Shown one piece after another: positions 22,603 to 58,444 of a stretch of DNA of 64,000 nucleotides. This DNA comes from Hydrogenovibrio sp. JE_KL2 (GTDB taxonomy: Bacteria; Pseudomonadota; Gammaproteobacteria; Thiomicrospirales; Thiomicrospiraceae): positions 62,001 to 126,000 of the forward strand of contig NZ_WBJR01000001.1 of the NCBI RefSeq assembly GCF_009296185.1, given 5' to 3'. The notes below the pieces were generated by a model. The model ran no database searches, was not told the origin of the DNA, and worked only from the letters and a program-made list of their open reading frames with translations. The translations under genes were made by a program, and so were the position numbers. The first letter of the stretch is position 1. Every line of letters begins with the position of its first letter.

Positions 22603-22807
22603 GTTATGCCCGGAATGTTGGAAATTATTTTGAAAGCGGTTGTCTTATTTTAGCTGTCTAATGGTAAACACCATCAACTATATCTGCTTATGGTGATGAT
22701 GGCTTCAACCCCAATTTGACTTTATGATAATATTCATAAAAAGAGTAGGGTTAAACAACACATATGTTTGCCTATTACGGTCTGGATTAAGGATAAACGA
22801 GGTCGGA

Positions 22808-35154: not shown

Positions 35155-35351
35155 GATAAATATAACTTATTAGTTAAGGATTCTCTAAACAGAGTTTTTT
35201 ATGAAGCTTAATCAAAGTTTTGAATTTCTTATTTTGGTTATTTGTTGTTCGTTATTGGTGCGTAATGCGTTTATACGAAGAGAGCTTGAGGGTGTGTTTT
35301 CTATATAAATAATTGATATTTATTGTCTTTTATTATTGGTATGTCGATTGC

Positions 35352-35379
35352 TTATTACGAAATTAATAAAACGTAATAA
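35352..35379. promoter_or_regulatory. 28-bp operator dyad 1, upstream of the guanidine ABC permease gene
   Basis: TTATTACG (35352-35359), 12 bases, CGTAATAA (35372-35379). It ends 29 bp before the permease ATG. The same dyad with identical spacing occurs at 53324-53351 and, with two changes, at 58176-58203. The half-sites are 20 bp apart centre to centre, as expected for a tetrameric RHH regulator such as NikR. Confidence 0.7.
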
Positions 35380-36395: not shown

Positions 36396-37331
36396 ATGAC
36401 TGAAACGACTATGAATATTGAAAACGCACATCCACTGGACAAATGGGTTACACCGGAGATTGCAGCACGTAACGACCGCATTGAGATTCGCCCTGTTGCG
36501 CTGGAAATCAAGCAACTTCATAAATCCTTTGAACACAAAGGCAAGGTCAACAAAGTCTTGAACGGCATTGATTTCACCACTCACAAACGCGAGTTTATCT
36601 GCGTGGTGGGGCCTTCAGGTTGTGGTAAATCGACTTTGGCAAGACTGGTTGCCGGTTTGGAGCAGAAAGAAAGTGGCCACATTCTGGTAGAAGGCAAAGA
36701 GGTGACTGAACCTGGCCCGGATCGCGGTATGGTGTTTCAAAGCTATTCTTTGTTCCCTTGGATGTCGGTCAAACAAAACGTAATGTTTGGTCTGACCCAA
36801 GCCGGTATGGCGAGAAATACAGCCGAAGCGGAAGCGCTACAGTGGATTGACTTGGTTGGGCTTTCCAAATTCGTCGATGCTTACCCTCACCAGCTTTCAG
36901 GTGGGATGAAGCAACGTGTGGCGATTATCCGCGCCTTGGCGAATCAGCCGAAAATCCTGTTGATGGATGAGCCTTTTGCGGCACTTGACCCAAAAAACCG
37001 TTTGAAAATGCAACAGTACCTATTGGAAATCTGGCGCAATATCGACATCACGATTTTCTTTATCACCCATGATTTGGATGAGGCGATTTATCTGGCAGAC
37101 CGCATTTTGGTGCTGGATGCCAATCCTGGTAGAGTAAAAGAAGTAGTCAAAGTACCACTGCCTAGACCAAGAGCGGATGACACGCTTTTGACTGAAGAGT
37201 TTTTGGCCACCAAGGCCTATTTAGAAAGCCTTGTGCACCCTCCGGAAACGGAAGAAGAGGAGTCTATGGAAGACAAGCTCAGTATGGTGCGCATGGTTCC
37301 CGTTAACGCAGAAGTACCGGATATTTATTAA
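36396..37331 (+). CDS. ABC transporter ATP-binding protein, NitT/TauT type
   Basis: 311 residues with Walker A GPSGCGKST, Q-loop VFQSYSLFPW, signature LSGGMKQRVAI, Walker B ILLMDEPFAALD and H-loop FITHDLDEA. An N-terminal extension of about 40 residues precedes the ATPase core. It powers the importer whose permease ends 12 bp upstream. The C-terminal 50 residues are acidic (PPETEEEESMEDK). The next gene starts one base after its stop codon. Confidence 0.93.
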   Translation: MTETTMNIENAHPLDKWVTPEIAARNDRIEIRPVALEIKQLHKSFEHKGKVNKVLNGIDFTTHKREFICVVGPSGCGKSTLARLVAGLEQKESGHILVEGKEVTEPGPDRGMVFQSYSLFPWMSVKQNVMFGLTQAGMARNTAEAEALQWIDLVGLSKFVDAYPHQLSGGMKQRVAIIRALANQPKILLMDEPFAALDPKNRLKMQQYLLEIWRNIDITIFFITHDLDEAIYLADRILVLDANPGRVKEVVKVPLPRPRADDTLLTEEFLATKAYLESLVHPPETEEEESMEDKLSMVRMVPVNAEVPDIY

Positions 37332-37332
37332 T

Positions 37333-37806
37333 ATGGCACAACAACCCACTCATCTCGTAAGAACCAGTGCCTCGTTACCAGCGAAGGTGTTGGAAGATTT
37401 AGACAAACTGGTCGTCGATCGTGGTTTTAACAATCGTTCCGCTTTATTGGCGGAAATGATTCAAAAGGAAGTGGCTTCCTATCGCCAAAACTTCACCAAT
37501 GAAGTTATGGCAGGCACCTTGACCTTGGTGTTCGACCATTCTATTCCCGGCTTGCAGCAGAAATTGAATCAACTTAAGCATCAGTATGTTGCGGAAATCA
37601 TTTCCTCAACACAGGTTCAGTTGATGGATCAGCACACGCTAGAAGTGAACTTGATGCAAGGCCCTGCACAGGACTTGAAACGTATCAGCGATGAAATGCT
37701 ATCGAATCGCGGCGTGAAAACCGGAAACCTTTATTTAACCCATTCAGCTTTGCCACCCATTTTTACAAGGGGGAAAGACGCAAAACAGGAGAAGTCGGAT
37801 GACTGA
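37333..37806 (+). CDS. NikR-like ribbon-helix-helix regulator lacking the nickel ligands
   Basis: 157 residues from ATG 37333, right after the ATPase stop (the frame is open upstream inside the ATPase gene). The N-terminal RHH domain (about 8-50) has VRTSASLPAKVLEDLDKLV and NRSALLAEMI. The C-terminal ACT-like NikR domain (about 55-137) has GTLTLVFDHSIPGLQQKL and EIISSTQVQLMDQHTLEVNL. In NikR the nickel site is built from His in STQHH and LHVHIN plus a Cys; here these positions read STQVQ, LEVNL and no Cys. The effector may therefore be a small molecule rather than nickel. It is the natural candidate to bind the 28-bp dyads. Confidence 0.82.
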   Translation: MAQQPTHLVRTSASLPAKVLEDLDKLVVDRGFNNRSALLAEMIQKEVASYRQNFTNEVMAGTLTLVFDHSIPGLQQKLNQLKHQYVAEIISSTQVQLMDQHTLEVNLMQGPAQDLKRISDEMLSNRGVKTGNLYLTHSALPPIFTRGKDAKQEKSDD

Positions 37807-38566
37807 AAACAACGCGAAAACCACACCAAAATCTGCCAGGTTGGGGGATTTGATCTGGCGTGAAAATCTACCTGGCGGCGCACACTGGTCGGGCGTGATT
37901 CGCCGTGGAACCGTTTTGAGAATCACCGATGTTCAAGGTGGTGCCAACGCCTCCATGTTGATCAACAATATTGAAGTGAAAAACGAACGCTACAACATGC
38001 CGGATACCCTGAAAGCGCAAAAGACCGCTTTCCTGACAACGCCGAATATGTGTTTCAGTGATATGGGGCGGGTGATGTGTTCCATTATTGGCGATACCTG
38101 CGGTTGGCATGACACCATCGGTGGTATTTCAAATGCTCGTATCGTTGAAAAAAAATACGGCGCGAAAAGTTACCAAAAGGCACATAACGACTACTACAAA
38201 AACGGTTTCGACAGCTTGATTAACGAGTTGGAAAAATGGGGCTTGGGTGTCAGCGATATCATGCCGAACATCAACTGGTTCAGCAAAGTGCGTGTTGAAG
38301 ATTCGGGTGCCATGACCTTTGTTGAAGGCAACTCTAAAGCGGGCGATTGCGTTGATTTACGTTTTGAGATGGACTGTATCGTCAGCATTGCGACGGCGCA
38401 GCACCCGCTAGACCCTAACCCGAAATATGACCCGAAACCGATTGAATTAAGTGTGTTCAAAGCCATGCCTGTTGGACAAGATGACCCTTGCAGATTGCAT
38501 AGAGCGGAAAACGAACGTGCTTACTACAACACCAAGATTTACTATGGAGAAAATCCAAATGGCTAA
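37799..38566 (+). CDS. Carboxyguanidine deiminase subunit, DUF1989 (urea carboxylase-associated protein)
   Basis: 255 residues of the DUF1989 family. The core motif [16 protein letters not shown] (about 100-115) carries the conserved Cys and His-Asp. In guanidine-degrading bacteria two DUF1989 proteins (CgdA and CgdB) together deaminate carboxyguanidine to allophanate; older names are urea carboxylase-associated proteins 1 and 2. This is the longer of the pair. It overlaps the RHH gene by 8 bp and the second subunit by 8 bp, so stoichiometric expression is likely. Which of CgdA or CgdB it is I cannot decide. A perfect 19-bp repeat lies near its start. Confidence 0.87.
37828..37846 (+). repeat. 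19-bp interspersed repeat, perfect copy (inside a DUF1989 gene)
   Basis: AAAATCTGCCAGGTTGGGG, coding for the KSARLG segment of the first deiminase subunit. Confidence 0.85.
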
Positions 38567-39212
38567 GATGCAAACAGAAACTTTTGACGATAACCGTATT
38601 GTTTACCGTGAAGTGGTGGAAGCAGGCAAGCCTTGGATGCATGAAGTCAAAGCTGGTCAATATTTCCGTATTGTCGACTTGGAAGGTAACCAAGCGGTCG
38701 ATACTTTGTTCTACAACGCCAAAGACCACTCCGAACGTTATTCGGCGGCAGACACCATTCGTGAGCAGGGCAATATCTACCTGACCACAGGCAGTGTGTT
38801 GCAGTCCAATATGCTAAATCCGATGTTGACGATTGTTGACGACACTTGCGGGCGTCACGACACCATCGGCGGGGCTTGCTCGGCAGAGAGTAACACCGTG
38901 CGTTATGCGATAGAAAAACGTCATATGCACTCTTGCCGCGATTCGTTCCTGATGGCATTGAACACTTGTGATTGTCATGCCGACAAGCCAATGACAAAAG
39001 GGGATTTGGCGAGCAATATCAACTTCTTTATGAACGTTCCGGTTTCTCCAGATGGGCATTTGGATTTTGATGACGGTATTTCCGCACCGGGGCGTTATGT
39101 TGAGATGCAGGCGCACATGGATGTATTGGTGTTGGTGTCAAACTGTCCGCAATTGAACAACCCATGTAATGGGTATAACCCGACGCCGGTCGAGATGATT
39201 ATCTGGGCTTAA
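38559..39212 (+). CDS. Carboxyguanidine deiminase second subunit, DUF1989
   Basis: 217 residues from ATG 38559, with GGAG 10 bases upstream; the frame opens earlier at 38451 inside the previous gene. It is homologous to the preceding protein, with the parallel motif [16 protein letters not shown] and further conserved HSCRDSF and NTCDCHADK segments. It is predicted to form the heteromeric carboxyguanidine deiminase with the upstream subunit, releasing ammonia and giving allophanate. After its stop comes a 130-bp gap holding the riboswitch that precedes the carboxylase gene. Confidence 0.87.
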
Positions 39213-39286
39213 AGGGGCATCAGCGACTCAATTGCGTTGTTGAGCGGTTTCAATATTGAACGAACTTGAAATTTGTAACGGAAAAT

Positions 39287-39328
39287 CTAGGACGACCTAG
39301 TTGAAATAAAACCTTCAGAACGATCTGA
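39287..39328 (+). promoter_or_regulatory. Guanidine-II (mini-ykkC) riboswitch
   Basis: Two short hairpins with identical ACGA tetraloops: CTAGG-ACGA-CCTAG (39287-39300) and TCAGA-ACGA-TCTGA (39315-39328), joined by 14 bases. The ribosome-binding sequence AAAAGGA follows at once, with the carboxylase ATG at 39343. Two small stems with ACGR loops just before a Shine-Dalgarno are the defining layout of the guanidine-II class, where two guanidines stabilise a loop-loop contact and translation is turned on. Its position inside a guanidine carboxylase operon fits well. Confidence 0.88.
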
Positions 39329-39342
39329 TAAAAGGAAAACCC

Positions 39343-42300
39343 ATGTTTAAAAAAGTGCTGATTGCAAACCGCGGGGCCATTGCGACTCGCATCATCCGCA
39401 CCTTGAAGAAAATGAATATCGCTTCCGTGGTGTTGGCATCCGATGCCGACCGCGCATCTTTGCACGTCAAAGAAGCCGATGAAGTCATTTTCCTCAAGGG
39501 TAATGCCGCAACAGAAACCTATTTGAATGTGCCTTTGATTCTTGAGCGAGCCAAGGCTTTGGGCGTGGAAGCTGTTCATCCGGGCTATGGCTTCTTGAGT
39601 GAGAATGCCAGCTTTGCCGAAGACTGTGAACATATGGGCATTCGTTTTATCGGGCCGTCTCCTCAACATATTCGTGATTTCGGACTGAAACACACCGCCC
39701 GTGAGTTGGCGATTGAAGCCAAAGTGCCATTATTACCCGGGTCGGGATTATTGGATTCGTTAGAAGAGGCTTTGGGTGAAGCTGAGCGTATCGGTTATCC
39801 GGTGATGTTGAAAAGTACTGCGGGTGGCGGTGGTATCGGTATGCAGAAATGTGATACGCCGCAGGTGTTGTCGGAAGCTTTTGAACAGGTCGCGCGTTTG
39901 AGTCAAAACTCTTTCGGGCAAGCTGGGATTTTCCTGGAAAAATTCGTCGTCAATGCACGTCATATCGAAATCCAGATTTTCGGTGACGGCAAAGGCAAGG
40001 TCGTTTCATTGGGTGAACGTGATTGTTCTTTGCAACGTCGTAACCAAAAGGTGGTGGAAGAAACGCCTGCAGTAGGTATCAGCCGTGATATGGTTGCCGA
40101 GATGGAAGCCCATGCAGTCCGTTTGGGAGAGTTGGTCAGCTACCGTTCTGCCGGAACGGTGGAATACGTTTATGACGCTGACGCACAGCAATATTATTTC
40201 TTGGAAGTCAACACGCGCTTACAGGTGGAACACGGTATCACCGAAGCGGTAAGAAATGTCGATTTGGTCGAGTGGATGGTGCAGGTTGCGTTTGACCAAA
40301 ATCTACCAGGTCGGGGGGAAGTGAATCCTGCGACCGGGCATGCGATTGAAGTACGTGTCTATGCCGAAGACCCATTTAAAAACTTCCAACCAAGTTCCGG
40401 TAAGTTGACAGGCTGGCAAATGCCGACAGATTGTCGAGTGGACACTTGGTGTTCCAAAGGGCAGGAAGTCAGTTCTTTCTACGACCCGATGTTGGCAAAA
40501 ATCATCGTCACCGGTAAAGACCGCGACGAAGCGGTTAAGAACCTGAACAAAGCACTGAAATCGACCAGTATTCACGGGTTTGAAACCAATGTGTTTTATC
40601 TGGAAGCTTTGAGTGAAGCGCCAGCGTTTATCAAAGCGGAAGGGTTGTATACGCAATTTTTGAACAGCTTTACCCATGAACCTTTTACTGCGGAAGTGAC
40701 CAATCCGGGCACGCATTCCATGTTAGTGAGTTATCCGGGGCGTGTTGGTTTTTGGGATATAGGCGTGCCTCCTTCCGGGCCGATGGATGCGTTATCGCAT
40801 CGTTTGGCAAACCGTTGTTTGAACAACCCTGAAGACGCCGCAACCATCGAGATGACAGTGTCCGGCATCAGTTTGAAGTTTGATCGCGATACCGTGATCT
40901 GTATCACCGGTGCCGATATTCAACCGACTTTGGACAAAGAGCCGATTCCTATGTGGAAGCCGGTGCCTGTCAAAGCGGGGCAGCAGCTTAAGTCTAAAGT
41001 CATCAAGGATGTCGGACAACGTGCTTATCTGGCGGTGCTGGGTGGTTTTGATGTGCCGGATTACATGGGCAGTAAAACGACTTTCTCGCTAGGCGGTTTT
41101 GGTGGACACGGTGGTCGACTGCTGCGTGCAGGGGATGTGTTACGTCTAACGCGTCAGAGTAGTCAAACTAGCCAAGGTATTAGCGATGCCGTGTTGAACG
41201 ATTTGCCGGAAGGATTGATTCCAACACTTAATAATCGAGCCGAAATCGCGGTGATTTACGGCCCTCAAGGCGCGCCGGATTTCTTTACCGATGAAGATAT
41301 CGAAACCTTTTTCTCAATGGATTGGGAAGTGCATTACAACTCCAGCCGCACCGGGATTCGTCTGATTGGGCCAAAACCAAAGTGGGCGCGTAAAGATGGG
41401 GGTGAGGCGGGCTTGCACCCATCAAACATCCATGACAACCCTTATGCTATTGGTGCCATCGACTTTACGGGTGATATGCCGGTTATATTGGCGCAAGACG
41501 GTCCAAGTTTGGGAGGCTTTGTTTGTCCGGCAACCATTATCGAAGCAGAGCAATGGAAAATGGGGCAATTGCGTCCGGGCGACAAGGTGCGTTTCAGACC
41601 CGTTTCCATTGAGACAGCAGAAGCAGAACTTAAAGCGCAAGAAGCCGCCTTGGTCGGTTTATCTGACTGGGTATTGCCGGATACCAAATTCCTTGCATCA
41701 CCAACAGAACAATCCTGTTTGGCACTGGAAATTTCCTCGGACGAGCATGAGTTCGGTGTGAAGTATCGCCGCTCGGGTGATAGCCATTTGTTGATTGAGT
41801 ACGGTGCGATGGAGTTGGATTTGGCATTGCGTTTCCGTATTCAGGTATTGGTCGAGAAGTTGAAAACTTTGAAAGACCAAAGTTCAGATGAAGACCCAAC
41901 CTGGCAGTTTTTGCGTGATTTGACCCCGGGTATTCGCTCTTTGCAGGTGCACTACAACCCAAGACAAATTTCGCAGAATGAGTTGATTCAAAAACTGAAA
42001 GGGCTGGAAGACGAGATTTCCTCGGCAAAAGATTTGACGGTGAAAAGTCGTATCGTTCGCCTGCCTTTGTCTTGGGATGACCCCAGTACGCGTTTGGCCA
42101 TCGAGAAATACATGACCACGGTGCGCCCGGATGCACCATGGTGTCCGAGCAATATCGAGTTCATCCGTCGTATCAACGGACTGGATTCCATTGAAGATGT
42201 GAAGCGTATTGTCTTTGACGCCAAGTATTTGGTCATGGGCTTGGGGGATGTTTACTTGGGGGCGCCAGTGGCGACACCGTTGGATCCGCGTCACCGCTTG

Positions 42301-43008
42301 GTGACCACTAAATACAACCCGGCTCGTACTTGGACGCCGGAGAACGCTGTCGGAATCGGTGGTGCTTACATGTGTGTTTACGGCATGGAAGGCCCGGGTG
42401 GTTATCAGTTTGTTGGGCGTACCATTCAAATGTGGAATGCTTATTTCAACACCCCATTCTTCCAACAAGGTAAGCCTTGGTTGTTGGACTTCTTTGACCA
42501 GATTCAGTTCTATCCGGTGAGTGAAGAGGAATTGGCGCAAGCGAGAAACGACTTCCCGCTTGGGCGTTACGATATCGACATCGAAGAGACCACGTTGTCT
42601 TTGAGTGCCTATCAGGCATTTTTGGCAGAAGAAGCTGATAGCATCCAAACTTTCCAAACGAAACAGCAGGCAGCATTTGAAGCCGAGCGTCAGCGTTGGG
42701 AAGAAACCGGACAGGCGAATTTTGAGTCTACTTCGGCACAGGAAGAAGTGCTGGGTGAAACGCCAATAGAAATCCCGGAAGGGTTTGAAGCGGCATTGTC
42801 ACCGATTACCGGAAGTGCATGGAAGATTACTGTCAAACCGGGGGATAAGGTTGCAGAAGGTGATGTCATCGCCATTCTGGAAACTATGAAAATCGAAATT
42901 CCGGTCGAAGCGGAAAGTGACGGAATTGTCACCGAAATTTTGGTGAATGAAGGGGATTTGATTCAGAACGGGCAAGCCATCATGATTTTGGAGGTCGCAG
43001 ACGCATGA
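39343..43008 (+). CDS. Guanidine carboxylase (urea carboxylase family), biotin-dependent
   Basis: 1221 residues, the full length of bacterial urea-type carboxylases. The biotin carboxylase domain (about 1-450) has LKSTAGGGGIGMQ and LGERDCSLQRRNQKVVEE. The AHS2/KipA-like (about 465-770) and AHS1/KipI-like (about 800-1050) carboxyltransferase parts follow. The C-terminal biotinyl domain has ILETMKIEI with biotin on Lys 1183; the common AMKM is TMKI here. It uses ATP and bicarbonate to carboxylate guanidine (or urea). The riboswitch and DUF1989 partners point to guanidine as substrate. It overlaps the allophanate hydrolase gene by 4 bp (ATGA). Confidence 0.93.
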   Translation: MFKKVLIANRGAIATRIIRTLKKMNIASVVLASDADRASLHVKEADEVIFLKGNAATETYLNVPLILERAKALGVEAVHPGYGFLSENASFAEDCEHMGIRFIGPSPQHIRDFGLKHTARELAIEAKVPLLPGSGLLDSLEEALGEAERIGYPVMLKSTAGGGGIGMQKCDTPQVLSEAFEQVARLSQNSFGQAGIFLEKFVVNARHIEIQIFGDGKGKVVSLGERDCSLQRRNQKVVEETPAVGISRDMVAEMEAHAVRLGELVSYRSAGTVEYVYDADAQQYYFLEVNTRLQVEHGITEAVRNVDLVEWMVQVAFDQNLPGRGEVNPATGHAIEVRVYAEDPFKNFQPSSGKLTGWQMPTDCRVDTWCSKGQEVSSFYDPMLAKIIVTGKDRDEAVKNLNKALKSTSIHGFETNVFYLEALSEAPAFIKAEGLYTQFLNSFTHEPFTAEVTNPGTHSMLVSYPGRVGFWDIGVPPSGPMDALSHRLANRCLNNPEDAATIEMTVSGISLKFDRDTVICITGADIQPTLDKEPIPMWKPVPVKAGQQLKSKVIKDVGQRAYLAVLGGFDVPDYMGSKTTFSLGGFGGHGGRLLRAGDVLRLTRQSSQTSQGISDAVLNDLPEGLIPTLNNRAEIAVIYGPQGAPDFFTDEDIETFFSMDWEVHYNSSRTGIRLIGPKPKWARKDGGEAGLHPSNIHDNPYAIGAIDFTGDMPVILAQDGPSLGGFVCPATIIEAEQWKMGQLRPGDKVRFRPVSIETAEAELKAQEAALVGLSDWVLPDTKFLASPTEQSCLALEISSDEHEFGVKYRRSGDSHLLIEYGAMELDLALRFRIQVLVEKLKTLKDQSSDEDPTWQFLRDLTPGIRSLQVHYNPRQISQNELIQKLKGLEDEISSAKDLTVKSRIVRLPLSWDDPSTRLAIEKYMTTVRPDAPWCPSNIEFIRRINGLDSIEDVKRIVFDAKYLVMGLGDVYLGAPVATPLDPRHRLVTTKYNPARTWTPENAVGIGGAYMCVYGMEGPGGYQFVGRTIQMWNAYFNTPFFQQGKPWLLDFFDQIQFYPVSEEELAQARNDFPLGRYDIDIEETTLSLSAYQAFLAEEADSIQTFQTKQQAAFEAERQRWEETGQANFESTSAQEEVLGETPIEIPEGFEAALSPITGSAWKITVKPGDKVAEGDVIAILETMKIEIPVEAESDGIVTEILVNEGDLIQNGQAIMILEVADA
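40298..40316 (+). repeat. 19-bp interspersed repeat, 17/19 copy (inside carboxylase gene)
   Basis: AAAATCTACCAGGTCGGGG, two changes from the reference, coding for NLPGRG. Confidence 0.6.
41894..41912 (-). repeat. 19-bp interspersed repeat, 17/19 reverse copy (inside carboxylase gene)
   Basis: ACCCAACCTGGCAGTTTTT on the plus strand, with two changes from the reverse complement of the reference. Confidence 0.6.
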
Positions 43009-44813
43009 GTACCAAACATAATTTCGATTTGAGAATTTCTTCCCTTCGTCAGGCTTATGCGGATGGAGAACTCTCTCCTAGAGAGTTGATGACTTTGTTG
43101 GTGGAAAAAGCGGAGTCTTATGAAGACCACAATATTTTCATCCATCTGTTATCCGATGAAGAGCTTGAACCTTATCTGGCTAAGCTTGAGGCATGTGACC
43201 CGAGTAGCCTGCCTTTGTGGGGGATTCCGTTCGTCATCAAGGACAACATTGACCTGGCGGGTGTTCCGACAACGGCGGCTTGTCCTGAATATGCTTATGT
43301 ACCGGAAGCTTCTGCGACCGTTGTTCAACTTTTGGTGGATGCCGGTGCCATTCCGCTCGGTAAGGCAAATATGGACCAGTTCGCGACTGGATTGGTCGGC
43401 ACGCGTTCCCCTTATGGTGTTTGTCATAACGCTTTCAACTTTGACATGATTTCCGGTGGTTCAAGTTCCGGTTCTGCGGTTTCTGTGGCATTGAATTTAT
43501 GTAGTTTTTCACTGGGAACCGATACAGCAGGTTCAGGGCGAGTACCAGCGGCATTCAATAACCTCATCGGTTTGAAGCCATCCAAAGGGTTGCTGAGTAC
43601 CAAAGGCGTTGTGCCTGCCGTGCGTTCGCAAGACGTGGTGAGTGTGTTCGCGTTGAACTCTCAGGATGCCTATGAGGTGTTTGAAGTGGCGGCACAAGCC
43701 GATGCGGAAGACGAGTTCAGCCGTAAGGAAATGGATTTGATGCCACCGGCTTGGGGGGCTCGTCCGGTGCTGGGGATTCCAAGCTCGGAAACCATCAGCT
43801 TTGCCGGAGACGAACAGGCAGAGAAGCATTTTTATGACTCGATTGCCGAGCTGAAAAAACAGGGCTATGAAGTCAAAGAGATCGACTTCCAACCATGGCT
43901 GGATACCGCCAAGCTTTTGTATGAAGGTGCTTGGGTTGCCGAGCGTTACGTTGCCATTGAAGCCTTTATGGAAACACACGAAAGTGTCATGGATCCGAGT
44001 GTGGGGGCGATTATCGCAGGTGCGAGAAAACTCAGCGCCGCGGATGCCTACAAGGGCAGTTATGCCTTGCAGAAAGCACAGGCAGTAACGGCATCGTTGT
44101 GGCAAGACATTGATTGTATGTTGACGCCCACCACGCCAACTATCTACTCAATCGAACAAATGCAAAACGACCCGATCAAGCTGAACTCGGTATTGGGAAC
44201 CTATACCAACTTCATGAACCTATTGGATTATGCCGCGTTGGCAATGCCAACAGGTTTTAGAGAAGATGGCTTGCCAATCGGTTTGACGATGTTTGCACCT
44301 GCTGGAACAGACAGGTTGCTTATGAAGCTTGCTGATAAATTACACGGTCATTTTGTACCGACTTCGGGCGCGAAAGAAACGCCGGTAACGCCAACGCATT
44401 CAGAGTTTTTTGCGAATCCACATGCTATTCCGCTGGCTGTGGTTGGTGCGCATTTGACCGGCTTCCCTCTAAACGGGCAGTTGATTGAACGTGGGGCGAA
44501 ATTGTTACAGACCACGAAAACCGCGCCAAAATATAATTTCTATGAGTTGTCCGAAAGACCGATATTGAAACCGGGTTTGGTCAAAAACGAAGCGGCTGGC
44601 GTTAGTATCGAAGTGGAAGTTTGGGCGATGCCGAAGCAACATTTGGGTTCTTTCCTTGCGCTGATACCATCGCCATTGGGATTGGGTAAAGTCGAACTAA
44701 TCAATGGTACGCAGGTTGTTGGGTTTGTCTGTGAACCTTACGGTATTGAAGGCGCCAAGAGCATTAGTCAAACCGGCGGTTGGCGTAACTGGATGGCGGT
44801 TAGAAAAGATTAA
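43005..44813 (+). CDS. atzF: Allophanate hydrolase
   Basis: 602 residues. The N-terminal amidase-signature domain (about 1-460) has the catalytic Lys in FVIKDNIDLAG, the cis-Ser and Ser nucleophile in GGSSSGSAVS, and LGTDTAGSGRVPAAF. A C-terminal domain of about 130 residues, typical of AtzF and of the hydrolase part of urea amidolyase, has NGTQVVGFVCEPYGIEGAK. It cleaves allophanate to ammonia and carbon dioxide, the last step in guanidine nitrogen release. The 4-bp overlap with the carboxylase gene indicates translational coupling. It ends the operon. Confidence 0.93.
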   Translation: MSTKHNFDLRISSLRQAYADGELSPRELMTLLVEKAESYEDHNIFIHLLSDEELEPYLAKLEACDPSSLPLWGIPFVIKDNIDLAGVPTTAACPEYAYVPEASATVVQLLVDAGAIPLGKANMDQFATGLVGTRSPYGVCHNAFNFDMISGGSSSGSAVSVALNLCSFSLGTDTAGSGRVPAAFNNLIGLKPSKGLLSTKGVVPAVRSQDVVSVFALNSQDAYEVFEVAAQADAEDEFSRKEMDLMPPAWGARPVLGIPSSETISFAGDEQAEKHFYDSIAELKKQGYEVKEIDFQPWLDTAKLLYEGAWVAERYVAIEAFMETHESVMDPSVGAIIAGARKLSAADAYKGSYALQKAQAVTASLWQDIDCMLTPTTPTIYSIEQMQNDPIKLNSVLGTYTNFMNLLDYAALAMPTGFREDGLPIGLTMFAPAGTDRLLMKLADKLHGHFVPTSGAKETPVTPTHSEFFANPHAIPLAVVGAHLTGFPLNGQLIERGAKLLQTTKTAPKYNFYELSERPILKPGLVKNEAAGVSIEVEVWAMPKQHLGSFLALIPSPLGLGKVELINGTQVVGFVCEPYGIEGAKSISQTGGWRNWMAVRKD

Positions 44814-51134: not shown

Positions 51135-52496
51135 TTAGAACAGGTGACTATAACGTTTGATTTCCCATGCAGAAACCGTCTTGTGATATTCATCCCATTC
51201 CTGTTTTTTGTAACGAATGAATTCATTGCGAAGTTCTGAACCCAAGACTTCTTCAATAAATGGATCCGCAGCAAAAGCTTCAACGGCTTCGCCAAGGTTT
51301 TGAGGTAGGAACTCAATGCCTTTTGCTTGACGTTGCTCTTCAGTCAATTCATATAGGTTTTCTTCTTGCGCTTCGCCCGGATTCAGCTTTTCTTTAATGC
51401 CTTGTAGGCCAGCAGCCAGTACAAGCGCAGCAGCCAAATAGGGGTTGACCGCACCGTCGGCATTACGGGATTCAAAACGCCCGCCACCCATTGGCACACG
51501 CAAAGAGTTGGTACGATTGTTTGAGCCGAAAGAGTTGAACACCGGCGCCCAAGAGAAGGTTGCCATATCCCCCTGACGAATCAAACGCTTGTAGCTGTTG
51601 ACGGTTGGTGAAAATACCGCGCACAGTGCAGGACCATGTTTCAAAACACCGGCAATGAACTGGTAACCGATTTCGGTTAGGCCGAGACCTCTAGGATCCT
51701 CTTTCGGATCACACTTAAAGACGTTTTCGCCAGTCTCCTTATCGAATAAAGACATATTGAAGTGTGCGCCGTTACCCGTTTTGTCCGCAAATGGCTTCGG
51801 CATAAAGGTCGCAAGCAGGCCTTCTTCCTTAGCATAATGTTTGGCCATATAACGGAAGAAGATAAAGCGATCACACATCGTCAGTGCGTCGCTGTACATG
51901 AAGTCGAACTCATATTGTCCGTTGGCATCTTCATGATCCAAGGAGTACAAATCCCACCCAAGATCGTTGATGGTGGTTGCCATCTTATCCAACCACTCAA
52001 AGCGGTTCATAAAGCTTTGTACGTCATAACAAGGTTTGGTTAGCTTGTCGTCTGGATCAGGAACCGACAGGCTTCCGTCTGCTTCTTCCTTCAATACAAA
52101 CAACTCACACTCGATGCCCAAGTTGAAACCAAAGCCCATTTCTTCGGCTTGCTCCAAAACTTTTTTCAACGCGACACGCGTGTTGATTTCGTAGGGTTCG
52201 CCATGCAGTGTGTTGTCTGCAGCCATCCACATAACTTCAGGTTGCCATGGCAGTTGAATCGCGCTATTCAAGTCCGGTACAGAAGCGATTTCATCATCGT
52301 TAGGTCTTTGACCCAGACCATCCAACGCATAACCCGTGTAAAGTTCAGAGCCTTTAACCATATGCCCTAAATGATCAATCGGTACAAATTTTCCTTTTGG
52401 GATGCCGTGTATGTCGACATAGGCGCCAAGACAATATTTAACGCCTTTAGATTTCCAATCTGCTTGCAGTTGTTTAACATCAATTTCACTGTTCAT
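51135..52496 (-). CDS. glnT: Type III glutamine synthetase (GlnT-like)
   Basis: 453 residues from ATG 52494-52496, with GGAG 9 bases upstream; the frame also opens at TTG 52508. The glutamine synthetase catalytic domain shows [21 protein letters not shown] and [20 protein letters not shown]. The short beta-grasp N-terminus and [19 protein letters not shown] fit the GlnT/GSIII group from rhizobia. Such enzymes ligate glutamate with ammonia or, in some relatives, with an amine, using ATP. It follows the creatininase gene by about 33 bp in an operon with the 28-bp dyad at its head. Assimilating the released ammonia, or capping an amine, are both plausible. Confidence 0.88.
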
Positions 52497-52529
52497 TTGA
52501 ATCTCCAAAATTCAAGTTGTTCAATTAGG

Positions 52530-53309
52530 TTATTTATCGCTGTTGATAGGTGAGTGATAAGAGTAGGGTAAGGGCGGTTGTTCCTTAATACCTTTGTTAA
52601 TAACATCGCTTAGGTCGCTGACCATCCAGCTGAATAATTCTTGGCCTTTTTCAATTGAAGCTTCACTAGGCTTACCTGTAACCCCATTTAGACTGGTACG
52701 GTTCACGGGATGAGAAAAGACGCAGTTCTCTGTGCGGTCTGGATCGTCACTTTCTTTCAGCTTATCGGCTCTGACCATTTCCGGGGCAACAGCCATCATC
52801 AAAGAGGTTTCAGCTTCATTTGCGTGCCAATCGTCGGCATCCCAAAAATGACGTTCCCTAACTCTTTCGCTGATGGTTGCAGAGTTGATTAGGGCTACCA
52901 TCAAGTCGTCATGTTCGGCACGTAGCATTTCCAAAGCGCAACGCAAAGGGGCGAAATTTGAAACGTGACTGTTGAGGATGAAGAGTCTTTTGAAGCCGCT
53001 GTATGCAACCCAATCACCGATTTCTTTAACTACGTCAATTAGGGTTTTAGGTTGGAGAGCGATAGTGCCCGGCCATTTTTTTGAGTGCCCGATAGAGCAG
53101 CCATAAGGCAGCGTCGGTAAAACGGCGATATCGGTTATTTCACCGATCGATTTCGACAGTTTCTCTGCTATTTCCGAATCCATGCCGCAGCCCAAGTGTG
53201 GGCCATGTTGTTCAGTTGCGCCGACAGGTAATAACGCCGCACAGGAACCGGCTGAATCGGCTTTGGTAAATTTCTCGACCTCTTGCCAGGTCATGTGATG
53301 CCATTGCAT
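52530..53309 (-). CDS. Creatininase-family amidohydrolase
   Basis: 259 residues. The signature LLPVGATEQHGPHLGCGMDSEIA supplies the Glu, His and Asp metal ligands, and DDWHANEAETSLMM carries the later Glu. The usual NGHGGN segment reads NSHVSN here, so the active-site rim differs from true creatininase. The family opens cyclic amides (creatinine to creatine) and related substrates with zinc or manganese. It is first in a two-gene operon with glnT and is headed by operator dyad 2. A role on a guanidino or cyclic-amide compound is inferred from context. Confidence 0.87.
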   Translation of the reverse strand: MQWHHMTWQEVEKFTKADSAGSCAALLPVGATEQHGPHLGCGMDSEIAEKLSKSIGEITDIAVLPTLPYGCSIGHSKKWPGTIALQPKTLIDVVKEIGDWVAYSGFKRLFILNSHVSNFAPLRCALEMLRAEHDDLMVALINSATISERVRERHFWDADDWHANEAETSLMMAVAPEMVRADKLKESDDPDRTENCVFSHPVNRTSLNGVTGKPSEASIEKGQELFSWMVSDLSDVINKGIKEQPPLPYSYHSPINSDK

Positions 53310-53323
53310 AATGACTCCAATAA

Positions 53324-53351
53324 TTATTACGAATTCATAAAAACGTAATAA
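53324..53351. promoter_or_regulatory. 28-bp operator dyad 2, upstream of the creatininase gene
   Basis: TTATTACG-N12-CGTAATAA, identical in arms and spacing to the copy at 35352. Here the arms extend to 11 bp each (53321-53354). It lies 14 bp upstream of the creatininase start codon. Confidence 0.75.
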
Positions 53352-53476
53352 TTAAAAAACAAGAAAGAGCCCAATGAAAATTTTATTTTCAATTTCAAAT
53401 ACTTGCTTGAAAAATGGGGTGAATTTTGGTGGTTTTTATGTTCAAAACCTTCCCTTAAAAGGGAATATATTGTTCA

Positions 53477-54349
53477 TTATGGTGCAGGAAGAGGTCTGCT
53501 TGGTGGGACGGCTTCAAGGAGGGCGGCAACCAGAATGCAGGCACCGCCAATCATTTCAGTTGTTCCCATGGTTTCGCCTAGTATCAGGCTGGCGGAGACG
53601 ACGGCGGTGACCAGTTCCAGAATAATGATGATAGAGGATTTTCCGGATTCCATTTTTGTAACGGCCCACTGTGTTGCCATGTTGGCTGCCATCATCCAGA
53701 TTGCACCATAGGCAAGAAGGACGAACCATGCATAAGGGGTTACCGAAAGAAATACGGGTTCCCCTAATTGAAGTACGACGACAGTGGAAAGCAGAACCGC
53801 GCCAAAGAACATAAAGGACAATTTGAGCAAAACAGGCGTGGCGGTAGAGGCTCTATAAACGATGTTGTTCATGGCAAATAAAAAGCCGGACAAAACGGCG
53901 AGTGCATCTATCCATGTTGGGGGTGTGGTGAAGGCATTGAACCCGCCAATGACAAGGAATGCGCCTGTCAGTGAGAGCCCCATGCCGAGCCATCGTAACT
54001 GAGTGATTTTTTCTCCTAGAAAAATTCGGCCCCCCAGAACTCCCCATAGTGGCAACATGTAGAACAACACCATGGCACGTATGACATCGCCATAAATCAT
54101 GGATGTATTAAACGCAAGTTGTGCGCCGCCACCCAATAGCATGACACCAATCAAGGCAGGCCAGTTTTTGGAAATAAGGTTTTTGTACTTCCATACAAAA
54201 GGCAATGTCACTACAAACATAATGCTGTAGACGAATAGGGTAATGGGAATGCCATTGAAGCCTAGTTCATGTAAGTATTTGAGGGGTAACCAAGTGAGTC
54301 CCCATAAAAACGATGCGCCAAGGAGCGTCAATACCGCGAAGGATTGCAT
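53477..54349 (-). CDS. EamA/DMT-superfamily transporter
   Basis: 290 residues with about ten hydrophobic helices in two EamA repeats (about 5-135 and 150-280); the first repeat begins VLTLLGASFLWGLTWLPLKY and the second contains GAIWMMAANMATQWAV. DMT proteins export metabolites, amino acids or, in relatives, guanidinium (the SMR branch). It is the last gene of the operon that starts with the binding protein at 58159, 42 bp after the TIM-barrel gene. The substrate is unknown; export of a pathway intermediate is a reasonable guess. Confidence 0.88.
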   Translation of the reverse strand: MQSFAVLTLLGASFLWGLTWLPLKYLHELGFNGIPITLFVYSIMFVVTLPFVWKYKNLISKNWPALIGVMLLGGGAQLAFNTSMIYGDVIRAMVLFYMLPLWGVLGGRIFLGEKITQLRWLGMGLSLTGAFLVIGGFNAFTTPPTWIDALAVLSGFLFAMNNIVYRASTATPVLLKLSFMFFGAVLLSTVVVLQLGEPVFLSVTPYAWFVLLAYGAIWMMAANMATQWAVTKMESGKSSIIIILELVTAVVSASLILGETMGTTEMIGGACILVAALLEAVPPSRPLPAP

Positions 54350-54391
54350 AATATTCCTGTTGTGAGATTTTTGTTGTGGCTCTGAATCAGA

Positions 54392-55252
54392 TTATGGGTG
54401 GGTTTCAGTAAAATTTTGGAAATCATGCTGTAGGGTTAGACTCATCCATTGGTTAATTTTCCAAATATCAGCTACCGGCATTTGGGTATAAGGCTGCAAA
54501 TGACAGTATCCATCCGGGCCGAACTCTGGCGTTAATGTTGAGCCACTATAACCTCGCTGAGCCTGTTTTGCCCAAAACATTCGCCAGATGCGTTGATGGG
54601 AAAGCAATGCCTCATAATATTCGGGGGCGGCAGGAACAGGTACTTGAGGGCCTTGATCATAACCAACACGCCCATGAATGTGGTGGACTCGGTCGGCAAT
54701 GGCTTCAATGGTGTCCATTTCCGAATCCATCAATCGCTCACAGACAACGCACCAGTGACTGATGTCTGCGGTCAACTTCATGTTTGGAAGGCTTTCGACA
54801 ATCCTGCGTGTCACCCAAGGCGTGAAAAGAGAACGGCTACGATGTGTTTCAAAGCTCAGTGTGATGTTGTAGTCATCTGCAAGTTCAATCGCTTGGCCAA
54901 AAAAGTCAATGCTTTGGGATTCTTCCCACGCATCACAACCCGTAATACTGGTTGCAAATAAGGGTTCAATCATCATGCTGTTGTCTAGCTGACGTTTCAA
55001 GTCATCAAGGTGTTGTTGAGGTGACCAGCTTCGATCCGGGACATAATCGCCTCCAGTAACAATCTCGGCAATATAGTCACATCCGTTGTTTTGAATGGCA
55101 CTCAGCATCCCCAGTTGTTGTTGACGGTTATCTGGCGCTTGACCTTCAATGCCACTGAAGCCTGCATCAATGGCTTGCTGGCAGGCTTGGTCGGTAGTTA
55201 GTTTATTGCCCCAAAGGGTTTTAAAAGTTTTAAGTTGCATATTAGATGGCAT
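54392..55252 (-). CDS. Xylose isomerase-like TIM-barrel protein
   Basis: 286 residues with the AP-endonuclease-2/sugar-isomerase fold: KLTTDQACQQAIDAGFSGIE at the start, ITLSFETHRSR with a metal-binding Glu and His, LTADISHWCVV with the Asp and His, and HHIHGRVGYDQGPQVPVP. These residues fit a divalent-metal isomerase or epimerase site. The substrate is unknown. It lies between the EamA and metallo-beta-lactamase genes with short gaps, so it belongs to the same operon. Confidence 0.82.
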   Translation of the reverse strand: MPSNMQLKTFKTLWGNKLTTDQACQQAIDAGFSGIEGQAPDNRQQQLGMLSAIQNNGCDYIAEIVTGGDYVPDRSWSPQQHLDDLKRQLDNSMMIEPLFATSITGCDAWEESQSIDFFGQAIELADDYNITLSFETHRSRSLFTPWVTRRIVESLPNMKLTADISHWCVVCERLMDSEMDTIEAIADRVHHIHGRVGYDQGPQVPVPAAPEYYEALLSHQRIWRMFWAKQAQRGYSGSTLTPEFGPDGYCHLQPYTQMPVADIWKINQWMSLTLQHDFQNFTETHP

Positions 55253-55267
55253 ACTGGACGACTCAGC

Positions 55268-56050
55268 TTACTCGAAAAAATTCGGGAAGCGATTATGTTT
55301 TTGAAAGAACGCCCAATCATGGTTCGGCCAGATATCCGCTTGTAGGGTTTTGCCGAGTTTTTTCAGCTTTTGGATGCTTTCAATAGCCAGTTGATCTTGA
55401 TCCTGCCAGCATAGGCCGGGAGCGATTTCGTCTTCAATATTTTCCATGAGATCAGCGGCGTCACCTGCCAATAGGATAGGGCTTCCTTTGGGTAGTTCTA
55501 TCAGCATCGACATATGACCCGCAGTATGACCAGGGGTTTCTATGGCACTGACACCTGGGGTCAAATCATATTCTCCAGTTTGAAGTTTCCAGTTGAGTGG
55601 CAGGTCGAAATCTGAGGCAAAATAAGCTTCGTCAGCAGGTTGTTTTGCGGCATCTATTTCTCTGGTGTGCACGTGAACTTCCGCATTGCAGAACTCGCAT
55701 AAACCTCCTGCATGGTCAAAGTGTAAATGACTACAGAAAATCACATCAACATCCTCTGGTACCAGCCCCAAAATTTCCAAACGATTTGGCAGGCGTTCCT
55801 CTTCATTCATTTCCGGCGGGCCAAAAGGGAAGCCTTCATGCTCGTAATAGAATTTACGCTTTTCCGTATTTTGGATTTTTTCGTAATCGCACCCTACGTC
55901 AAATAGGATACGGCCATTGTTGGTTTCTATAAGATAGGCGAGGATGGGGGCTTTAATGATTTCGCCATGACCTCTACCTCTGGTCGATAAGGTCTTCTCA
56001 TAAGTGTGTCTGCCAGTCAGGATTGGCCAGAATTTTTTTACTTGTGTCAT
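55268..56050 (-). CDS. Metallo-beta-lactamase-fold hydrolase, lactonase-like
   Basis: 260 residues. The metal motif HLHFDHAGGL (HxHxDH) is followed by TPGHTAGHMSML, the late Asp in LAGDAADL and a final His in PNHDWAFF. The arrangement is that of AiiA/AttM-type N-acyl-homoserine lactonases and related lactone or ester hydrolases. No signal peptide is present, so it is cytoplasmic. Inside this operon a step opening a lactone, lactam or cyclic intermediate is more likely than quorum quenching, but that is inference. Confidence 0.84.
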   Translation of the reverse strand: MTQVKKFWPILTGRHTYEKTLSTRGRGHGEIIKAPILAYLIETNNGRILFDVGCDYEKIQNTEKRKFYYEHEGFPFGPPEMNEEERLPNRLEILGLVPEDVDVIFCSHLHFDHAGGLCEFCNAEVHVHTREIDAAKQPADEAYFASDFDLPLNWKLQTGEYDLTPGVSAIETPGHTAGHMSMLIELPKGSPILLAGDAADLMENIEDEIAPGLCWQDQDQLAIESIQKLKKLGKTLQADIWPNHDWAFFQKHNRFPNFFE

Positions 56051-56073
56051 GCCATTCTCTCAATTCATCATTT

Positions 56074-57084
56074 TTAATGAGCGGTCAGGAAAGAGACGCC
56101 ATCTACTCCGATAAAGGTTTCGCCTTCATCTGTTTTTACGTCTAAGTAGACCGGATCGCCATTCAAAATTCTGGGTATGCGATAGCGGTGAAAACTTTTG
56201 GCTAAGTGTCTCAAAGTTAAAACCTGGGATTTGTCCGAACCATAGATTTCCTGGTGTAGTTTTGGAAGTCGATACCAAGGTTGCAGTTGCTGGTCATGAT
56301 GAACATTGTGGTAGCAGAAATTCAACACCAACAAGTTTACCCAAGGATGTCTTTCGGAAAGCAAATTTGAGTAGGTGTTTTTGTGCTCAAACACTCGATC
56401 TCGCATTCTCGCTTCAGGGCCACGTGGTTGGTCTAGGGTTTCAAAAACCTCGTAGGTGTGTTGGTGCACATCCATAAAGCGCATCACGGTCATGAACATC
56501 AGGTAGGCAATCGGATAGAAAATCAATACCTGCCAACCAATGCTTGCCAGCCACGCAAAAAATGCGATTCGAAGCGCGAGAACGGTCATGACGCGTGTAC
56601 GTCGAGCCTTGCGGTTTTCCTTTATGAAAGGTAAAACTATTACCAAGGCATGCATCAGGATTTCCAATGCAGGAATATAAGCCCATTCAAGTGTTTTAAT
56701 GAGCTTAAGAAATTTGGGATGTGGTTCGAGTATCGGTCTGAAATCAAATGAGACGATATCGGCACGGTCGATATGATGACGGTTATGTTTGTTTCGAATG
56801 TCTTCGAAATGTGAATAACTACTGCCCGTCACCCAAAGCAATAATTCGGCATATCTTTGGTTATGTTTTTTATCTCTGAACAGGCTCATGTGCGCTGTTT
56901 CGTGAATGAGATAGGCTGCAATCACCATAGAGTGTGCCAAGATAAAGGTACCTAATATATTTGCAAAGACATCATCTGAGACGATGAGAGCAAAACCACC
57001 TACATAGGTTGTGATGACATATGCAAAAGCTGCCAGGTTGGGTAAAAAGGCATCTTCATGTCGGAAAATAGGCTTGTCTTTCAT
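56074..57084 (-). CDS. Membrane fatty-acid-desaturase-family oxidase
   Basis: 336 residues with about four membrane helices and the three histidine boxes of the di-iron desaturase/hydroxylase superfamily: HETAH (about 62-66), HNRHH (about 100-104) and HNVHH near residue 278. The family uses oxygen to desaturate or hydroxylate lipids, alkanes, carotenoids or amines. In this nitrogen operon a hydroxylation that starts breakdown of a substituted guanidine or amine is conceivable; a lipid substrate remains the default. It follows the binding-protein gene across an 85-bp gap with a strong hairpin. Confidence 0.86.
   Translation of the reverse strand: MKDKPIFRHEDAFLPNLAAFAYVITTYVGGFALIVSDDVFANILGTFILAHSMVIAAYLIHETAHMSLFRDKKHNQRYAELLLWVTGSSYSHFEDIRNKHNRHHIDRADIVSFDFRPILEPHPKFLKLIKTLEWAYIPALEILMHALVIVLPFIKENRKARRTRVMTVLALRIAFFAWLASIGWQVLIFYPIAYLMFMTVMRFMDVHQHTYEVFETLDQPRGPEARMRDRVFEHKNTYSNLLSERHPWVNLLVLNFCYHNVHHDQQLQPWYRLPKLHQEIYGSDKSQVLTLRHLAKSFHRYRIPRILNGDPVYLDVKTDEGETFIGVDGVSFLTAH
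57025..57043 (+). repeat. 19-bp interspersed repeat, 17/19 copy (inside the desaturase gene)
   Basis: AAAAGCTGCCAGGTTGGGT, two changes from the reference, antisense to the gene near its start. Confidence 0.6.
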
Positions 57085-57133
57085 GTTAGCCTCGTTTGTT
57101 ATTCAAGAAATAAAGTCTATTGCGTTGTAAAAC

Positions 57134-57157
57134 TCTCCGAAGCATTCGCTTCGGAGA
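57134..57157 (-). terminator. Hairpin between binding-protein and desaturase genes
   Basis: TCTCCGAAGC-ATTC-GCTTCGGAGA, a perfect 10-bp stem downstream of the binding-protein stop on the minus strand, followed by TTTT. It is likely an attenuating terminator that lets the binding protein be made in excess over the downstream enzymes. Confidence 0.65.
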
Positions 57158-57169
57158 TGGGAGTTAAAT

Positions 57170-58159
57170 TTATTTCATTGCGTTGGTTAGGCTACCGTCA
57201 AAGTAAGCGTCAACATCTTGATGTTTGTCATACACTTTGTTGGCGACGTTGAAGTCATCCGAAACTTTTGAAGAGCCGTAGATTGAATCCAAACCTGGAC
57301 CTTTTTTGAAAGCTGCTTTCGCTTCGTCCAAAGTCAGAATTTTGGTTCCTTCTAAGAAAGTGGCATATTCTTTAGGGTCAATATTCACGCGTGAAGCCAT
57401 GATTTTGACCGCATCGTCATGTGTTTTTGGATCTTTGATGTAAGCAACGGTTTTGTACCAAACTTTCAAAACCTTTTCCCAGTCTTTTTTACGGGTAGCA
57501 AGGCTTTCAGGGTTTACGGAAAGACCATCGTAAATCAAGCCAGGGTCGTTGGCAGATGTATAGAAAGCTTTTGAACCAGGAACGCCTTTAAGTGCTAGCC
57601 CAGAGCTAGGTTGCCATGCGCCGACAGCAGAGACTTCACCTGAGGCAAGAACTTGAGGTGTTTCATTAGTAGGTACGTTAACCAGTGTGACGTCTGACTC
57701 TTTCATGCCTGCAGATTCAAGTGCTTTCAATACGAGAAGGTGATCTACAAATCCAACTTCAACCCCAATTTTCTTGCCTTTAAGTTGCTTCATTGATGTG
57801 ATGCCTGGTTGACCGATAATCATATCGTTACCATTGGAATAGTCATTGATGATAATCATCGTACTCGGCGCACCTGTTGAACCCGTCACTAGCGCATCAC
57901 CGTTAGTCATGCCAACCGCATCCAATTTACCGGCAGCGTATGCATCCATGGAGGCGACATAATCAAACCATTCGAAATCTACATCAACGCCGGCTTCTTT
58001 AAACCAGCCTTTTTGAATCGGAATTTCCCAAGCAACCCAGCCAGGCCAATCGCTATAACCGATTTTTAATGGTTCTGCCGCGTTTGCTTGCCAACTCATG
58101 GCACTTAAAGTTAACCCAGCAACAAAGCCAAGTGTTTTGGACAGCATTTTGGATTTCAT
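57170..58159 (-). CDS. ABC substrate-binding protein, urea/guanidine carboxylase-linked NitT/TauT type
   Basis: 329 residues from ATG 58157-58159, with GGGAGA 7 bases upstream; the frame is open to 58192. The signal peptide [20 protein letters not shown] leads to cleavage near [11 protein letters not shown]. The mature protein has the SsuA/NMT1 fold ([46 protein letters not shown]) of the binding proteins usually encoded next to the carboxylase-linked permease. It probably serves the permease and ATPase genes at 35409-37331, 20 kb away, because both promoters carry the same 28-bp dyad. Confidence 0.9.
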
Positions 58160-58175
58160 TACACAATCTCCCAAG

Positions 58176-58203
58176 TTATTATGATTTACCAAAAAGGTAA
58201 TAA
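58176..58203. promoter_or_regulatory. 28-bp operator dyad 3, upstream of the binding-protein gene
   Basis: TTATTATG-N12-GGTAATAA, one change in each arm from dyads 1 and 2 and the same 12-base spacer. It lies 16 bp upstream of the chosen start codon. Confidence 0.65.
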
Positions 58204-58444
58204 TTTTTAAGCATAAGATATACCATTAAAAATAAGTTATTGAAATTTAATATTAAATTTTGTTTTTGGTTAAAAATTTATTCCTTTTTTATATTGAGAT
58301 GCATTATATGGGTGCAATAAATGAGCAGTTTTGGTGTGTTTTGTGTATCAAGGGTTGGGTGTTTGGTTTTTTTTAAAGATTTTTAATTTGAGAAACTATG
58401 TTTAAAGAAGGGGGAGAACTCTGTATAATAAGCGCTTCACAAAA

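Follow-up and report, generated by a model that had tools for sequence, protein, structure and literature searches.

A desaturase-superfamily gene cluster of Hydrogenovibrio sp. JE_KL2 linked to guanidine carboxylation: a probable oxidative accessory branch

The genome of Hydrogenovibrio sp. JE_KL2 carries, within a stretch of 64,000 nucleotides of contig NZ_WBJR01000001.1 (positions 62,001 to 126,000; hereafter the window, to which coordinates refer unless a locus is named), a cluster of seven minus-strand genes which an earlier reading made from the DNA alone (the sequence-only reading) had interpreted as one coherent catabolic branch supplying a guanidine carboxylase operon in the same window. 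All seven open reading frames named by that reading were recovered, and profile matches agree with the families assigned to them. The first gene (57170-58159) encodes a substrate-binding protein (SBP) of the NMT1 type. The second (56074-57084) encodes a membrane protein whose sole Pfam match is FA_desaturase (PF00487) and in which the three histidine boxes of this superfamily (H61/H65, H100/H103/H104 and H259/H262/H263) are invariant in 34 aligned sequences; we refer to it as the desaturase and consider it a candidate di-iron hydroxylase of N-substituted guanidines. The following genes encode a lactonase-like hydrolase of the metallo-beta-lactamase (MBL) fold (55268-56050), a xylose-isomerase-like TIM barrel protein (54392-55252) and, by profile match, an EamA/DMT transporter that is possibly a product exporter (53477-54349). 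The TIM barrel protein, a candidate N-(hydroxyalkyl)guanidine lyase, has the invariant residues E135, D163, H191 and E243 and scores 31.0 bits against an AP_endonuc_2-like profile with a cut-off of 31.1. The last two genes encode a creatininase-family amidohydrolase (PF02633; 52530-53309) and GlnT (51135-52493; TIGR03105, 664.6 bits), a gamma-glutamyl ligase of the type III or glutamate-methylamine-ligase-like kind.

The carboxylase operon lies on the plus strand and begins with genes for an ABC permease (35409-36383) and an ABC ATPase (36396-37331), followed by a NikR-family regulator (37312-37806), two DUF1989 proteins, the carboxylase (39343-43008) and, by profile match, an allophanate hydrolase (43005-44813). 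The DUF1989 proteins match TIGR03425 (UAAP1; 37799-38566, 348 bits) and TIGR03424 (UAAP2; 38559-39212, 357 bits) above the cut-offs and form an adjacent pair of predicted carboxyguanidine deiminase subunits. The second of them also partly matches a trimethylamine N-oxide demethylase model (87.6 bits against a cut-off of 1100). According to the retrieved passages of PMC11410670, a guanidine carboxylase has Asp at the positions corresponding to 1330 and 1584 of the K. lactis urea carboxylase. In our alignment D707 of the window protein stands opposite N1330 and D969 opposite D1584 of the K. lactis enzyme; judged by these residues, the window carboxylase bears the guanidine signature and not the urea one. 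The window has the full set of the known guanidine carboxylase pathway (carboxylase, carboxyguanidine deiminase and allophanate hydrolase) but differs from it in lacking a riboswitch at gathering score, in having a NikR-like regulator with an operator, and in the placement of the SBP gene in another unit, the operon itself containing none. The sequence-only reading had taken the cluster SBP for the type that usually sits beside the carboxylase-linked permease, and this was borne out: in nine loci outside the family (L050, L051, L052, L056, L057, L097, L106, L108, L121; L denotes loci and G genomes of our comparison sets, G000 being the genome of the window) the orthologous SBP gene is directly followed by the permease gene. 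The cluster SBP therefore probably belongs to the carboxylase ABC importer.

Desaturase orthologues co-occur with guanidine carboxylase. In a family set of 34 genomes (desaturase threshold E<=1e-90) the desaturase is present in 15, and a full-length carboxylase was found in 14 of these and in 0 of the 19 others, two weak 37-residue matches (G007, G033) being left out of the count. The fifteenth genome (G002) has permease, ATPase, NikR and DUF1989 genes at a contig end. A second set consisted of 21 desaturase genomes reached by homologue search, one of which was G002 again; 18 of the 21 have a carboxylase, that of G066 being a fragment at a contig end. Among the 369 genomes of a class sample the desaturase occurs in 12, the carboxylase in 30 and both in 9, so that a carboxylase is found in 9/12 desaturase genomes versus 21/357 others (Fisher p = 8e-9, or 7e-7 once the two family genomes are removed), at a carboxylase threshold that may also let in urea carboxylases and with three of the nine matches partial. 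The co-occurrence part of the refutation test named by the sequence-only reading thus does not refute that reading. After removal of repeats, 43 desaturase genomes were pooled (15 from the family, 20 from the homologue search and 8 from the class sample), and 42 of them either contain carboxylase-pathway genes at any genomic position or carry a guanidine aptamer at the desaturase (for L055 from a hairpin scan only). G315 and G293 have the aptamer and no carboxylase at the threshold used. At 33 desaturase loci searched with tblastn, some on contigs that end early, the MBL gene was found at 29, the DMT gene at 30 and the TIM barrel gene at 27.

Among named records, the closest desaturases belong to Thiomicrorhabdus and Hydrogenovibrio. 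In a tree of the desaturases, a clade of 34 rows with moderate support (83/74) consists entirely of proteins from genomes with guanidine evidence. L101, L104, L108 and L036 fall outside this clade, and the unlinked homologues L063, L064, L102 and L103 were not gathered in one place. L036 (470-4992, in G001) holds a further TIM-desaturase pair, which has diverged and comes with ABC permease, SBP and ATPase genes of its own close to the carboxylase operon, as if it served another substrate. A homologue on a Gloeothece plasmid (35-36%) was considered as guanidine-linked and rejected; it adjoins an ectoine-synthase gene and has no guanidine genes beside it.

The cluster and the carboxylase operon share an operator, as the sequence-only reading had claimed. 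It reads TTATTAC-N14-ATAATAA upstream of the SBP-desaturase unit (58176-58203, minus strand) and TTATTAC-N14-GTAATAA upstream of creatininase-GlnT (53324-53351, minus strand) and again upstream of the carboxylase operon (35352-35379, plus strand). TTATTAC-N14-RTAATAA occurs at only these 3 places in the 2.44-Mb genome, and its reversed-control pattern at 0 places. With up to two mismatches the window contains 4 matches (two perfect, one with a single mismatch and one with two mismatches inside the permease gene) versus 0.18 expected, a number reached in 0 of 100 shuffles. Single sites with one mismatch mean little, because allowing one mismatch gives 5 places in the whole genome against 1 for the reversed control, and unrelated genomes have such sites at about the control rate. 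A k-mer comparison of the two upstream regions revealed no common word of more than 10 bases, and the operator emerged only as a dyad. A motif-free dyad count used 24 upstream regions, of which L062 duplicates G025; TATTA-N16-TAATA was present in 21, and no dyad exceeded 3 on 20 shuffles. Among 40 hand-picked upstream units from the family and near kin, compared with mononucleotide shuffles, the operator with at most two mismatches was present in 34 (shuffles mean 0.92, maximum 3). Four of the six units without it are desaturase genes directly after a carboxylase operon, and three of these four (L028, L038 and L042) have a Guanidine-II aptamer instead. As each operator copy in the cluster precedes a separate unit, the seven genes look like two units and not one operon.

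Next to these operators are sigma-54 (-24/-12)-like promoter elements, TGGTATATCTTATGCT upstream of the SBP gene (58210-58225, minus strand; pattern picked after the sequences had been seen) and TGGTATGTCGATTGCT at the carboxylase operon (35337-35352, plus strand; pattern match). In the 40 upstream units a -24/-12 element was found in 16 (shuffles mean 0.14) and an NtrC-type half-site in 27 (shuffles mean 2.1). A strict sigma-54 pattern gave 2 matches in the whole window versus 3.06 expected and is thus not enriched, so that the promoters are proposed from where the elements lie and from the upstream sets, for which the pattern was relaxed once the sequences had been seen.

The natural candidate for binding the operator, judging from its domains and gene position, is the NikR-like protein of the carboxylase operon, a candidate repressor at all three sites. 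Like NikR it has RHH and NikR_C domains (91 bits to PDB 2bj1) and a dyad-type operator, but its nickel ligands are lost. At the positions of the high-affinity ligands of NikR, which we take to be His, His and Cys, the window protein has Q-x-Q and Thr; among 17 aligned NikR-like orthologues the nickel Cys is missing in all 17 and the HxH pair in 14. The regulator may sense a guanidino compound rather than nickel.

Guanidine riboswitches were found at both gene sets in relatives and, probably, at the carboxylase gene of the window. Directly 5' of the latter (39284-39328, plus strand) lies a probable divergent Guanidine-II riboswitch that scores 22.1 bits (E=1.3), below the 32-bit Rfam gathering score, and consists of the two ACGR-type hairpins CTAGG-ACGA-CCTAG and TCAGA-ACGA-TCTGA. 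Besides the SRP RNA it is the sole match in the window up to E=10, and no riboswitch was found before the seven genes at the gathering score or up to E=10. Of 18 loci, 16 have twin ACGR hairpins before the carboxylase gene, the exceptions being L033 and L035. Among 38 desaturase genes scanned, 12 have Guanidine-II at the gathering score immediately 5' of them (L028, L038, L042, L047, L049, L050, L052, L053, L058, L060, L061, L108; L054 had no upstream DNA), and Guanidine-I stands at the head of the desaturase operon in three more loci (L101, L104, L105). In the majority of family members, among them the window, the desaturase has no such aptamer. L108 joins all elements in one row: Guanidine-I, SBP-permease-ATPase-creatininase-GlnT, Guanidine-II, desaturase-TIM, a further Guanidine-I, the DUF1989 pair, carboxylase and allophanate hydrolase. 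The L061 contig is filed as Pedobacter and its desaturase groups with Moraxellaceae; it is probably a contaminant. Taken together, co-occurrence, adjacency, the operator and the riboswitches of relatives make it well supported that the cluster belongs to guanidine metabolism. This part of the single-branch interpretation stood, and the part that places all seven genes in one pathway did not: the SBP probably serves the carboxylase importer and creatininase-GlnT is an optional unit.

A precedent for an oxidative branch comes from Vreelandella, where, according to the retrieved passages of PMC12508155, the guanidine carboxylase operon includes genes for MgdH, a methylguanidine hydroxylase, and MgdL, an N-(hydroxymethyl)guanidine lyase that requires Asp49 and Arg51; hydroxylation and hemiaminal cleavage feed the same carboxylase. 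We found HRI1-like genes that may represent MgdL. In L118 and L119 such a gene follows a 2OG-Fe(II) dioxygenase of 351/354 amino acids beside the carboxylase, close to the mgdH-mgdL order (with one extra open reading frame in between in L118). In L105 it occupies the slot of the TIM barrel gene (desaturase-MBL-HRI1-DMT), and in the L101 desaturase operon it follows the MBL gene. Asp-Leu-Arg is kept in all seven members, and the L105 protein scores 26.9 bits against Pfam HRI1, with a cut-off of 27. The family occurs in 6 genomes of the class sample, and in 5 of them one or more copies lie next to genes of the carboxylase or desaturase sets; the copy of G265 and one of the two in G416 lie elsewhere. 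The window genome gave no match to the HRI1-like query at E<=1e-6. The cluster resembles the MgdH/MgdL system in joining an accessory oxygenase and its partner to a guanidine carboxylase operon, in its guanidine riboswitches and presumed nitrogen-source role, and in the MgdL-like gene of two desaturase operons. It differs in that the oxygenase is a membrane PF00487 protein and not a 2-oxoglutarate dioxygenase, a fold for which the desaturase gave no match, and in that the window has a TIM barrel in the MgdL slot and additional MBL and DMT genes. From gene order we infer that the desaturase occupies the place of MgdH and, in one comparison (L105), the TIM barrel that of MgdL.

We consider it fairly probable that the cluster serves the guanidine carboxylase pathway as an oxidative accessory branch, its oxidase setting guanidine free from a substituted guanidine. 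A guanidino compound would enter through the ABC importer whose SBP gene heads the cluster, and the membrane di-iron oxidase would hydroxylate the carbon adjoining a guanidino nitrogen to give an N-(1-hydroxyalkyl)guanidine. The TIM barrel, in the role of MgdL, would cleave this hemiaminal, which is unusually stable, to yield guanidine and a carbonyl compound, as the slot replacement in one locus suggests; a carbonyl or acyl by-product might be handled by the MBL hydrolase and leave the cell through the DMT transporter. With the genes present, the carboxylase signature in place and the activities known from the literature, guanidine would then be carboxylated, deiminated and hydrolysed to ammonia and CO2. 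Transcription would be set at the NikR-like repressor site beside the sigma-54/NtrC-type promoter elements, and translation of the carboxylase probably by the Guanidine-II riboswitch; the sites are observed and binding is predicted. As substrates we would guess methylguanidine, a creatinine-like compound or longer guanidino acids.

More tentatively, and with slightly less confidence than doubt, we propose that dealkylation of N-substituted guanidines is the function of a widespread family of desaturase-superfamily membrane di-iron oxidases, which would be a new enzymatic source of free guanidine, that the TIM barrel is a second, unrelated N-(hydroxyalkyl)guanidine lyase, and that control lies with guanidine riboswitches or with a NikR-derived repressor that no longer uses nickel and may respond to a guanidino compound. 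Guanidine riboswitches are common and few guanidine-making enzymes are known, as stated in the retrieved passages of PMC12508155 and PMC11018352. If the proposal is true, a riboswitch-tied oxidase in many bacteria would point to natural substituted guanidines as a source of guanidine, and one gene set may answer both to an RNA sensor and to a relative of a metal regulator. Our search of the open-access literature (subscription papers and supplements lay outside it) returned no paper linking a desaturase-superfamily protein to guanidine catabolism; desaturases mentioned in the retrieved passages concerned the arginine desaturase NapI or a B12 riboswitch.

Several observations weigh against the oxidative branch as proposed. 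Most PF00487 members act on lipids. G220 has the desaturase and neither carboxylase nor aptamer; G160, G265 and L063 have a carboxylase elsewhere in the genome, not near the desaturase; and the carboxylase of L108 (G172) has a stop codon within the match. No MBL gene lies beside the desaturase in L060, L061, L106 and L108. The identification of the HRI1-like family with MgdL draws on gene order, a near-cut-off HRI1 match and the D-x-R motif and not on the published MgdL sequence, and the lyase role of the TIM barrel on slot replacement at one locus, L105. This role is weakened because neither a TIM barrel nor an HRI1-like gene was found at the main loci of G001 and G009 or in L104 and L059; the TIM barrel is also missing in L101 and L105. 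In L101 and L104 the desaturase is followed by genes for short-chain dehydrogenases and a true creatininase, an order that would suit a route through an acylguanidine.

In such a route the oxidised alcohol, instead of undergoing hemiaminal cleavage, would be dehydrogenated to an N-acylguanidine or cyclic amide, to be opened by an amidohydrolase (MBL, creatininase family or isochorismatase type). L104 and L101, in which Guanidine-I precedes genes for SBP, desaturase, short-chain dehydrogenase(s), creatininase above cut-off, a biuret-hydrolase-like isochorismatase (245 bits in L101, under the cut-off of 370) and MBL, speak for it. We nevertheless judge it unlikely: the seven genes of the window include no dehydrogenase, and L101 itself also carries the MgdL-like gene. 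If the desaturase were instead a true lipid desaturase that adapts the membrane to guanidine, a chaotropic cation, with MBL, TIM and DMT as detoxification genes, the PF00487 match with all three histidine boxes would be explained, and riboswitch control would fit a stress response too. We hold this to be quite improbable, as the desaturase travels with importer genes, MBL and TIM, and in two loci with the MgdL-like gene and amidohydrolases. The units also carry sigma-54/NtrC-type elements, as expected for nitrogen sources, and the second desaturase-TIM pair of G001 (L036) has its own ABC transporter genes. These promoter elements, sigma-54-like sites and NtrC-type half-sites in both gene sets, would also suit an imported nitrogen compound that is not a guanidine, the cluster sharing with the carboxylase operon only general nitrogen control. 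This last explanation is very improbable in our view, since the perfect or R-variant operator is confined to three units of the genome and the desaturases of relatives carry guanidine aptamers.

Creatininase-GlnT forms a unit of its own, which is optional and shares the operator. Of the 15 desaturase genomes of the family, 4 lack it at the desaturase locus (G003, G005, G013, G033; loci and not whole genomes were searched, and the G002 locus ends early), and it is found in the carboxylase operon of a genome without desaturase (G137, L121). In L050, L051, L106, L108 and L121 it lies between the transporter and DUF1989 genes, with desaturase-TIM intervening before the latter in L108. The product of its first gene departs from true creatininases: at the position of Glu122 in the NGHYEN motif, presumably the second metal ligand of creatininase, Ser or Thr is found in 13 of 13 sequences, and the window protein scores 130 bits against TIGR04448 with a cut-off of 235. 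Creatininases above this cut-off occur in L104 (353 bits) and L101 (338 bits), within Guanidine-I operons (L104 8195-13419; L101 4407-12142) that combine desaturase, short-chain dehydrogenase, true creatininase, biuret-hydrolase-like isochorismatase and MBL genes. GlnT is nearer to glutamate-methylamine ligase than to GlnA. Its best solved relatives are PDB 9qur (392 bits) and 7cql (333 bits), the latter of which we take to be GMAS (gamma-glutamylmethylamide synthetase), and a similar specificity is predicted at most by resemblance. A gamma-glutamylation step by GlnT is possible; the unit would perhaps gamma-glutamylate and deglutamylate an amine or guanidine released en route. The N-methylglutamate route was considered as its purpose and rejected: a SoxD match is present in 9 of the 15 genomes, and because the cluster GlnT occurs without one in G006, G008 and G010, such a role is not indicated. 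A point of difference from glutamate-methylamine ligase is that the window genome also encodes another GlnT homologue (42%), close to a SoxD match on contig C11 (G000:C11:50454-55392), which may mark a methylamine (N-methylglutamate) cluster. A class-I glutamine amidotransferase-like gene lies near the desaturase locus in L105 and L059.

An AiiA-type lactonase role of the MBL hydrolase is not supported either. The protein shares with AiiA-type acyl-homoserine lactonases the fold, the HxHxDH motif and its best solved relatives, but aligned with 5eht it has Asp at the position of AiiA Tyr194, presumably a catalytic residue, as do all 23 sequences compared, and it scores 152.6 bits against the AiiA cut-off of 375. 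Solved-structure searches gave no match up to E=1 for the desaturase profile and a single match for the TIM barrel that was not meaningful (E=0.89). Foldseek searches with the models were set aside: that of the desaturase returned two matches below 0.001, both in chloroplast motor complexes and uninformative, and that of the TIM barrel returned ketose 3-epimerases, YcjR, DgpB-C and IolE, too broad a range to name a reaction. Elsewhere in the window (22724-25707), a lipoprotein gene that looks binding-protein-like by eye and has no family match overlaps a GGDEF-EAL-like sensor gene by one base; the pair may encode a binding-protein-coupled diguanylate cyclase.

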